64,000 nt of DNA from contig NZ_CP072610.1 of the NCBI RefSeq assembly GCF_021029445.1, forward strand, positions 1,302,001-1,366,000, given 5' to 3'. Positions 58,461-60,720 of this stretch are shown in pieces; within the stretch, counting starts at the first letter, position 1; each line of letters begins with the position of its first letter. The notes under the pieces are model-generated. The model saw only the letters and a list, made by a program, of their open reading frames with translations. It ran no database searches and was not told the DNA's origin. The stretch is from Pseudomonas wenzhouensis (GTDB lineage: Bacteria; Pseudomonadota; Gammaproteobacteria; Pseudomonadales; Pseudomonadaceae). The position numbers and the translations under genes are program-made.

Positions 58461-59525
58461 TTAGTGTGAGCGGATCTCGGTCAGCAGCGGCTTTTGCAAT
58501 TCGCTGGCCCAGGCCAGCAGCGGCACGTGCACCTCAGGCTGCCAGATACGCTTGAATAGCAAGGCCAGGTGTTCGGACTCGCCGCGACTGAAGGGCAGGC
58601 GGTCGATGCGCTCATGCACCTGCCACTGACCCTCTTTCCTCTGCGCGAAATCGAAGCGGAAGGGATGAAAACCGGTCATGCCCAGGCGCAGGTCGGTGAC
58701 CACCAGGCGATCACCGATCTGGTCATAGCGCAGCACACCGCCGCTGAACCACTCCAGGCGTTGATGCATGGGGGCGTCAGCCAGGTGCTCACGCAGATGA
58801 GTGCCGCGCGGCAAGCGTTGCAGTTGCGGTGGCTCGTCATCGAACCAGCCAACCAGGGCTTCGTGATAGTGCTCGCCATCGAGCACGATGACGCGCCACA
58901 ACAGCGTGTTGAGCGGTGTCGGTGTGGTGAACAGCCGTTCGGCCTGGATGCCCTGACGCGCCAGTTCGCGCTCCACACGTTGCTCGGCCATGAATTTGCC
59001 AGCCAGACTGAAGCCTATGTACAGCGTCGAAACCGTCAGTGCTACGGCCGGTACGCGCCAGCTCTGCTCGCGCAGGCCGGTAAACAGGCTGATCAGCACT
59101 GCTGCGATCAGCGGCACGGTGTACAGCGGGTCGATGATGAACAGGCTGGACCAGGCCGTCGGCGTTGGCATCAATGGCCAGAACAGCTGGGTGCCATAAC
59201 TGGTGAAGGCGTCAAGCAGGGTATGGGTGACCAGTATCAGCCACAGTGTGAGTAACAGGCGGCTGGTCGAGTAACCGGGATGCGGTCGAAAGCGCCTGAT
59301 CAGCCAGGTCAGCAGCAGGGCGAAGCCGCTGAGGACGAACAATGAATGACTGAAGCCACGGTGGTAGGTCATGTTGGCCACGGCATCGCCGTATTCCATG
59401 ACCACGTCCAGATCGGGCAGGGTGGCAAGCGCAGCGCCGTAAAGCAGGGCTTTGCGACCCTGCCAGCGGCTGAGCAAGGCGCCCTGGATGCTGGCGCCAA
59501 GTACGGCTTGGGTTATGGAGTCCAT
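58461..59525 (-). CDS. Membrane-bound metal-dependent hydrolase (YdjM/DUF457 type)
   Basis: A 354-residue protein beginning MDSITQAVLGA with several membrane helices (near residues 30-50, 70-90, 95-115, 130-160). MTYHRGFSHS and THTLLDAFTSYGT carry the conserved His/Asp of the YdjM-type membrane-bound metal-dependent hydrolases. The soluble C-terminal half is less conserved. Substrate unknown. The ORF is open upstream to 59600, but the MDSITQ start is typical. Confidence 0.88.
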   Translation of the reverse strand: MDSITQAVLGASIQGALLSRWQGRKALLYGAALATLPDLDVVMEYGDAVANMTYHRGFSHSLFVLSGFALLLTWLIRRFRPHPGYSTSRLLLTLWLILVTHTLLDAFTSYGTQLFWPLMPTPTAWSSLFIIDPLYTVPLIAAVLISLFTGLREQSWRVPAVALTVSTLYIGFSLAGKFMAEQRVERELARQGIQAERLFTTPTPLNTLLWRVIVLDGEHYHEALVGWFDDEPPQLQRLPRGTHLREHLADAPMHQRLEWFSGGVLRYDQIGDRLVVTDLRLGMTGFHPFRFDFAQRKEGQWQVHERIDRLPFSRGESEHLALLFKRIWQPEVHVPLLAWASELQKPLLTEIRSH

Positions 59526-59649
59526 CGAATGCTTCCGAAAAAGGCAGGCCGCTAAGTTAGCCGAGCTGCCGGGCGAATGCCGTGGGGAAATTTCAAGCAA
59601 AGATTACAGCTGCGGCAGGTATGCTGATGGTTATACCTATTCAGAAAGC

Positions 59650-60069
59650 ATGGCCATGCTGATCGTCTCCAACAGTGTTCACCTGCCCGATGAGGAAATC
59701 GAGTTGACTGCCATCCGTGCCCAGGGCGCGGGCGGGCAGAACGTCAACAAGGTGTCCAGTGCCGTGCACCTGCGTTTCGACAGCCAGGCCTCGTCGCTGC
59801 CGCCGTTCTACAAGGAGCGCCTGCTGGCGCTTGCCGACAGTCGCATCACCGCAGATGGCGTGGTGATCATCAAGGCGCAGCAGTATCGCACCCAGGAGCA
59901 GAATCGTGCCGACGCCCTCGAGCGTCTTGCCGAGTTGATCCGCAGTGCCGGCAAGGTGGAAAAGAAACGCCGCCCGACCAAACCGACTCTCGGCTCGAAA
60001 AAGCGTCGCCTGGATGGCAAGAGCAAGCGCGGAGCGATCAAGGCGGGGCGGGGCAAGGTGGATTTCTAG
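59650..60069 (+). CDS. arfB: Alternative ribosome-rescue peptidyl-tRNA hydrolase
   Basis: A 139-residue protein with the class I release-factor GGQ motif in RAQGAGGQNVNKVSSAVH and a long basic C-terminal tail (KKRRPTKPTLGSKKRRLDGK) that reads the empty mRNA channel. It rescues stalled ribosomes by hydrolysing peptidyl-tRNA. Translation may start at 59650 or at 59656. Its TAG stop lies in the left end of an inverted repeat element. Confidence 0.92.
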   Translation: MAMLIVSNSVHLPDEEIELTAIRAQGAGGQNVNKVSSAVHLRFDSQASSLPPFYKERLLALADSRITADGVVIIKAQQYRTQEQNRADALERLAELIRSAGKVEKKRRPTKPTLGSKKRRLDGKSKRGAIKAGRGKVDF

Positions 60070-60259
60070 CAGGCCGTTGAAAAACGTCGGCGAGGCAGGC
60101 ACGGCAATACCGATGGCGGCCCCGCAAAAACGGCCGAAAAAAGCACTGGGCCCGCACTCGGGTTTACGAGTTGTAAATGAGCATTTTGACTGGGCTCGCA
60201 CGCGAGGCCGTTTTTAACGCAGTATTGCCAACGCAGGTAGTTTTTCAATGGCCTGCTAG
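60066..60259. mobile_element. MITE-like palindromic element, 194 bp
   Basis: Its ends are 20-base inverted repeats with one mismatch: CTAGCAGGCCGTTGAAAAAC (left) and the same with an A for G (right, minus strand). Nested inside are GGCAATAC/GTATTGCC (60103-60110, 60222-60229) and AAAAACGGCC/GGCCGTTTTT (60126-60135, 60206-60215), so the whole can fold as an interrupted long hairpin. It encodes no protein. The terminal CTAG supplies the stop codons of both flanking genes. It might be a non-autonomous transposon or a structured terminator-like element. Confidence 0.65.
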
Positions 60260-60720
60260 CCGCGTGCCGCCAGGTACGCCTGATAGTCAGGAATACGGTA
60301 CTCGTGCTGCTGCTCCAGCAGGCTGCTGCTGAGCATGTAGTCGGCGCTGCTCTCGTTGCAGGCTACCGGGATGTTCCACACCGCCGCTACACGCAGCAGT
60401 GCCTTGATATCCGGGTCGTGTGGCTGTGGCTCGAAGGGGTCCCAGAAGAACACCAGCATGTCCACGCGCTGTTCGGCGATGCGCGCACCGATCTGCTGAT
60501 CGCCGCCCAGTGGGCCGCTGATCATGCTTTCCACCGGCAAATCCAGACGTTTGCTCAGCAGCAGGCCGGTGGTACCAGTGGCCAGTAGGTGATGCCCGGC
60601 CAGCCGCCCGCGCTGACGTGCGCACCAATCGAGCAGAAAGCCTTTGCAATGGTCGTGCGCGACCAGGGCGATGCGTTTGCGTGCCGGCAACTGGGCGTGG
60701 GTGAAGCTGATACGGCTCAT
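60256..60720 (-). CDS. mgsA: Methylglyoxal synthase
   Basis: A 154-residue enzyme with IALVAHDHCK (catalytic Asp), TGTTG, and SGPLGGDQQIGA, followed by FFWDPFEPQPHDPDIKALLR, all typical of MgsA. It converts dihydroxyacetone phosphate to methylglyoxal, a bypass of glycolysis under phosphate-limited sugar stress. Its stop codon lies in the right end of the palindromic element. It lies 13 bases after gap on the same strand, so it may be co-transcribed with it. Confidence 0.94.
   Translation of the reverse strand: MSRISFTHAQLPARKRIALVAHDHCKGFLLDWCARQRGRLAGHHLLATGTTGLLLSKRLDLPVESMISGPLGGDQQIGARIAEQRVDMLVFFWDPFEPQPHDPDIKALLRVAAVWNIPVACNESSADYMLSSSLLEQQHEYRIPDYQAYLAARG

Follow-up and report, generated by a model that had tools for sequence, protein, structure and literature searches.

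Among the closest described systems is MITEPsy1 of Pseudomonas syringae, a short Pseudomonas MITE of 100 nt that was shown to transpose, that duplicates 4 nt of its target, CTAG or YTAA, and whose ends resemble those of the IS5 element ISPsy2, as given in the available parts of the source, where the table writes 'IS5?' (PMC3189936). The target of IS5 is given as YTAR in the part of PMC10359306 at hand. For the intergenic hairpin repeats of P. fluorescens, the accessible sections of PMC2718517 state that R0 and R2 share ends with a resident IS and were called likely MITEs, that the tail-tail bias of the repeats was explained as a 'least worst' location, and that R178 is a repeat of 101 bp with an internal 11-bp inverted repeat. 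In Acinetobacter, MITEAba12, with a length of 111-114 bp and duplications of 9 bp, shares its ends with a coresident IS, according to the available text of PMC6382973.

Here we describe a palindrome of 194 bp at positions 60066-60259 of the window (the whole 64-kb stretch of DNA analyzed), between the arfB ORF and the mgsA ORF. This element is very probably a nonautonomous IS5-type MITE of the ISPst12 kind, inserted at a CTAG in which the stop codons of the convergent arfB and mgsA genes overlapped. It resembles MITEPsy1 in its size class and 4-nt duplication, and MITEAba12 in sharing ends with a coresident IS. It differs from MITEPsy1 in its ends, and from MITEAba12 in its host, length and duplication size. 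Neither a stop-codon bias nor a core shared among differently ended elements appears for MITEPsy1 in the parts of PMC3189936 available, and the overlap with stop codons is likewise absent from the account in the accessible sections of PMC2718517. In the open-licence literature, we found no description of the 194-bp element by its sequence, by the combination of stop codons and MITEs, or by ISPst12. The element itself is thus of a known kind, though instructively placed, and the excess of copies at stop codons and the shared hairpin core described below are the parts worth following.

Ends of the 194-bp element and the resident ISPst12

The first-pass annotation, made from the sequence alone, had reported a 194-bp palindrome between arfB and mgsA, with a 20-base terminal inverted repeat containing one mismatch and nested inner inverted repeats. 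Its coordinates were confirmed, the ORFs end at 60069 (arfB) and 60256 (mgsA), and the inner repeats were both read from the sequence and seen in the fold. The 20-base arms, separated by 154 nt, do pair at 19/20 positions, but the outermost four bases proved to be the target duplication, leaving an inverted repeat proper of 16 bp (CAGGCCGTTGAAAAAC) with 1 mismatch. The features of the locus are as follows.

59659-60069, plus strand: arfB (RF-1 domain), coding region to TAG; ORF 59452-60069; Pfam RF-1, E = 2.6e-24 on 59659-60066
60066-60069, no strand: left CTAG target duplication; arfB stop at 60067-60069; a single YTAG at empty sites; IS copies flanked by CTAG/CTAG, one by CTAA/CTAA
60070-60085, plus strand: left terminal inverted repeat CAGGCCGTTGAAAAAC; same as one ISPst12 end; the 16th base differs in the other IS end
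60103-60110, plus strand: outer inner-repeat arm GGCAATAC, partner 60222-60229; read from the sequence; a comparable helix (helix 2) covaries in the 148-bp relatives
60126-60135, plus strand: inner stem arm AAAAACGGCC, partner 60206-60215; covarying helix
60163-60184, plus strand: apical hairpin TTTAC-N5-GTAAA, then TGAGCAT; highly conserved among compared elements (alignments A1 and A2); core-model match 60126-60215
60206-60215, plus strand: inner stem 3' arm GGCCGTTTTT, partner of 60126-60135; from sequence and covariation
60222-60229, plus strand: outer inner-repeat 3' arm GTATTGCC, partner of 60103-60110; read from the sequence
60240-60255, minus strand: right terminal inverted repeat; 1 mismatch compared with the left repeat
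60256-60259, no strand: right CTAG target duplication; mgsA stop (minus strand) at 60256-60258; a single YTAG at empty sites
60256-60720, minus strand: mgsA (methylglyoxal synthase) ORF; Pfam MGS, E = 6.7e-15

When the host genome, a single contig of 4.45 Mb, was searched with the 20-mer end, 19 matches were found at up to 3 mismatches, as compared with none for the reversed-pattern control. Twelve of them form six pairs 1339 bp in length, and two bound the 194-bp element; at this tolerance, no other copy of the element in this genome has both ends. Five of the 1339-bp pairs are flanked by CTAG/CTAG and one by CTAA/CTAA. The latter is a non-palindromic direct repeat, which identifies the four outermost bases as a target duplication and limits the true inverted repeat to 16 bp. 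One of the six copies, L031, encodes a 374-aa IS5-family transposase (NF033581, 263.9 bits, cutoff 140) and shows 99.9-100% identity to four plasmid copies annotated as ISPst12, from which we took the name.

The left end of the 194-bp element is the same as one end of ISPst12 over 16/16 bases, and both show the YTAR target duplication, CTAG/CTAG in the case of the element. In contrast, ISPst12 is 1339 bp long and carries a transposase, and beyond the 16-bp ends the two sequences differ by eye, with no similarity between the interiors. Since only the ends are common to both, the element is not a simple internal-deletion derivative of ISPst12; this simple case was ruled out, as no subterminal sequence is shared. 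The element shows the features of a bacterial MITE: it is short, lacks a transposase, has terminal inverted repeats, is accompanied by a target-site duplication and empty sites, and has near-full copies in two other genomes (G008 and G001). We propose that the transposase of the resident ISPst12, the matching IS, would move it in trans.

No match was found for 59900-60450 among the curated covariance models of Rfam up to E = 1, and a search of a phage collection likewise gave no match. A scan of 59900-60450 found a promoter-like site on the minus strand at 60248-60221 (9 of 12; shuffled mean, 0.1). P. aeruginosa and P. veronii plasmids carry relatives of the element (H11, LT969519.1, 75.6%; H12, LT599585.1, 67.2%), and, judging from these sequences, plasmids may be a route by which the element has spread.

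The arfB-mgsA junction and its empty sites

Because the two ORFs end at 60069 and 60256, the TAG of arfB and that of mgsA each lie within an outer CTAG, as the first-pass annotation had noted. To describe the junction without the element, both flanks were joined through one CTAG and compared with 398 genomes of the genus (the host included); 42 genomes matched at E<=1e-100. Four of the 398 (G275, G290, G098 and G344) gave an ungapped 590/590-base match to the empty site, a minimum count, since scoring at this threshold was confined to two candidates from each genome; a fifth, G268, matched with 20 extra bases. The empty junctions read gattt-TTAG/CTAG-ccgcg, with one nearby base differing in G275, and a single TTAG is also present at the junction in P. 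indoloxydans and P. composti. In this arrangement, arfB-YTAG-mgsA, the TAG terminates arfB, and the YTA, in its opposite-strand reading, terminates mgsA. Once the shared YTAG is duplicated, each gene therefore has its own complete native stop, so that both proteins are unchanged. The earlier statement that the element 'supplies both stop codons' should be amended: the stops, which lie in the outer CTAGs, are native, having overlapped in one YTAG that was then duplicated.

We suggest that the CTAG with the overlapping stops was the target and that insertion would have duplicated its four bases, leaving the proteins unaltered: a concrete case of an insertion between overlapping convergent genes that leaves both intact. 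The earlier proposal that a nonautonomous element inserted at a CTAG-like target is supported by the duplications, the empty sites and the matching IS. Each of the checks suggested with it had a positive outcome, as copies flanked by CTAG (five of the six 1339-bp pairs, and copies in relatives), empty sites in relatives (P. indoloxydans, P. composti and 4/398 genus genomes) and an IS with matching ends (the six 1339-bp pairs of ISPst12) were all found. The same insertion is present as a 178-bp version in P. chengduensis, G083 and G222. This common position would agree with a non-mobile local palindrome inherited vertically, an explanation made extremely improbable by the target duplications, the empty sites, the resident IS with the same ends and the copies at other loci in relatives.

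P. indoloxydans is identical to G290 at the locus, so that the two may be one genome, and P. chengduensis is identical to G222 in both genes; a single genome probably stands behind more than one of these names and handles in some cases. The host arfB shows 99.3% identity to that of G275, and the absence of the insert from G275 is a point against the MITE reading. For the host mgsA, the identity is 91.7% with G275 and 92.8% with the insert-carrying P. chengduensis; beside the element, the values are 96.2% and 97.5%, respectively. In a tree of arfB and mgsA together, the host locus groups with G275 (84/99). These sequence comparisons suggest that the locus (59659-60720) may be a recombinant, with arfB like that of G275 and mgsA slightly nearer to that of P. 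chengduensis.

In other relatives, the arfB-mgsA gap holds different sequences of 24-419 bp, as judged by eye, so that repeated filling of this gap seems likely. Several of the gap sequences in L127/L216, L129/L210, L211, L212, L215, L208 and L128 share a GTAGGGTG..GCGCACC motif.

Stop codons at copies in related genomes

Of 16 genomes chosen for a search, 15 contained the ends of the element, with as many as 110 occurrences and no match for the reversed control; when up to 3 mismatches were allowed in G008, the end pattern had 33 matches, as compared with 2 for the control. Among the matches listed, 57 sites were paired by hand in three related genomes (G098, 23; G197, 22; G389, 12), a set that omits unpaired ends and the sites of other genomes and that was found with a pattern itself containing YTAR. 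The 4-base duplications were identical at 27 of these sites, differed in one base at 22, and differed in two or three bases at 8; CTAA, TTAG and TTAA were also seen, and less often GTAG and TTAC. Exclusion of six sites judged orthologous from their shared flanks left 51, two of which (L301 and L302) are of IS length.

The stop codon of a coding-like frame lies exactly at the duplication in 31 of the 57 sites, and in 26 of the 51 without orthologues. (A looser rule, which allowed several offsets and scored 16 left, 20 right and 5 both of the 57, was superseded by the exact offset.) For comparison, 400 kb of G098, one of the three site genomes, contains 686 YTARs, with 41 at a coding-like stop and 525 outside called genes; the coding-like frames were called by a simple GC3-based rule, under which 75% of this control DNA was coding. 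Within gaps of up to 1000 bp between called genes, the ratio of positions at a stop codon to those elsewhere was 26 to 21 for the sites and 30 to 211 for the control YTARs (odds ratio 8.7, Fisher p about 1e-9), with four sites scored inside a called gene left out. Stops on both sides of the duplication were found at 4/51 sites as compared with 1/525 control YTARs, a small excess that is only suggestive. In the 64-kb window, 8 of 82 YTARs are at stops, two of these being necessarily those of the 194-bp element itself.

These data indicate that copies accumulate at Y-TAA and Y-TAG stops. Since duplication of YTAR keeps a complete stop, such stops are sites where these elements harm little, and we infer that this tolerance is the reason for the accumulation. 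The places where such elements survive would then be simple to predict, as YTAR targets that include a stop codon. Alternatively, instead of the survival of harmless insertions, the excess could reflect a preference of the transposase for target sequence close to stops. When each side was scored for its nearest stop, 30 of the 102 sides had it at the exact offset, 29 within the preceding 200 nt and 43 had none; the numbers for all control YTARs (1332 sides), which are unfiltered and include ones possibly inside a neighbouring gene, were 39, 183 and 1109. The ratio of 30 to 29, as compared with 39 to 183, agrees with such a preference. However, little beyond (Y)TA(R) stands out around the 51 sites (T in 48, A in 50, and mildly G/C-rich flanks), and we regard target preference as unlikely.

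The counts fit both target choice and the survival of harmless insertions, the latter being our preferred reading of the excess. The orientation of the neighbouring genes could be classified at 25 of the 51 sites and not at the other 26, with 15 tail-tail, 9 tail-head and 1 head-head, as compared with 50, 124 and 67 for the control YTARs.

The copies vary in their interiors. Seven of them (L333, L335, L337, L338, L341, L342 and L347) are 47-100 bp long and have the same ends with a different or nearly absent interior. An optional internal GATTCGCTTCGCTCACCCC-like block (L317, L318, L324 and L344) and an optional internal GACGACTGCATGGATGCAGGAGG block (L294, L297, L316, L319, L330 and L343) are variably present among copies, suggesting that the hairpins are modular.

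The nested hairpin and its occurrence within other ends

The 194-bp element folds more stably than expected (z = -3.84), with 0/200 shuffles as good, and A5 and T5 flank the inner stem on opposite sides. In an alignment of 27 relatives of 148 bp (A1; L075 together with 26 drawn from the 57 sites), 95.3% of cells are paired in the nested hairpin, and both sides are changed in 12 pairs and 60 cells, as compared with shuffled means of 6.4 and 21.8 and with at most 4 pairs and 11 cells in slid versions of the alignment; these cells count sequences, not events. Further pair types were not above chance in this alignment (22, as compared with 20.6 in shuffles; 116 of 500). When the cores of 33 sequences, picked by hand and differing in their ends, were aligned (A2; 30 of the 61 listed cores plus 3 others), 9 pairs and 41 cells are changed on both sides (shuffled, 3.5 and 12.0). 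The TTTAC/GTAAA apical stem and the TGAGCAT that follows are highly conserved in both alignments. It had been anticipated that covarying stems at a single locus would favour a local structured terminator; the stems do covary, but the element is found at many loci, and mobility and structure thus go together.

We considered whether selection has kept the element at the convergent junction as a structured bidirectional terminator or 3'-end stabilizer, its mobility being only historical. The strong fold, the A5 and T5 flanking the inner stem, the 60 doubly changed cells, the excess at gene ends with its tail-tail majority among classified sites, and the different sequences in the same gap of other relatives are all consistent with this explanation. 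On the other hand, a terminator scan of 59900-60450 (GC stem, loops of 3-8 only, T-run) found no site inside the element and a single site, in arfB, under a short-loop definition that does not extend to the inner stem, with its long loop and subsequent T5. Furthermore, four genomes of the genus do without the insert, stops on both sides are seen at only 4/51 sites, and the covariation could also come from palindrome-templated correction, without selection. We consider retention as a terminator possible but less likely than not. For a MITE inserted at the overlapping stops, our preferred explanation, the hairpin once in place may still act on transcript 3' ends.

In the host genome, a covariance model built on the core matched 37 places at E<=0.01 (150 of 1695 candidates scored). 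With up to 85 candidates scored per genome, it matched 38 of 57 genomes (the host included) at 1e-4, and 8 of the 38 belong to different families within the order. The core is surrounded by at least four kinds of ends; no higher number is claimed because automatic end-finding, which covered 30 of the 37 matches in the host genome, was clear for some cores and poor for others (e.g., L386, L392, L399 and L401). No IS-size pair was found in the host genome for the 'A' (GGGCRCCTCTAAAAAC), 'B' (GARCCTGTTCACGATC) or 'C' (GGTTCTGTACGAAAAGT) ends. The 'C' ends form one IS-size pair in G008 and one in G001. The former, L443, is an IS of ~0.9 kb with 88.9% identity to plasmid copies annotated as ISPst8. 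Like the 194-bp element, L443 has CTAG on both sides, and its ends bound 'C' elements carrying the same hairpin core; its ends are different, however, and it belongs to an IS5 subgroup (NF033580) other than that of ISPst12.

The interiors of an 'A' element of the host genome (L376) and a 'D' element of G098 (L296) share 102/108 bases, whereas the value for a pair of 'D' elements, both from G098, is 95/108. The 'B' and 'C' interiors have 86 and 82 matches to 'D', as compared with maxima of 70 and 69 in 100 shuffles. Since the 'A' and 'D' interiors are more alike than those of two 'D' elements, interior and ends seem to be of different history, which points to an exchange of ends. If MITEs exchanged their termini with one another, this would most simply account for the occurrence of one core within several kinds of ends. 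As a tentative hypothesis, to which we give appreciable but less than even credence, a structured passenger of ~110 nt may persist across Pseudomonadales by swapping ends of 15-20 bp, being moved by different IS5-family transposases and settling at stop codons since the stop-containing duplication keeps genes whole, with a conserved apical motif that would have a function of its own in RNA or protein binding. Family-by-family annotation would split such a hairpin core, which lies behind differently ended repeats. The core could be the R178 repeat of P. fluorescens (PMC2718517). In four 'B'-ended elements (L411, L078, L080 and L377), the first base is immediately preceded by a TGA or TAA resembling a gene stop, and a TGA-containing duplication is possible at elements of this kind.
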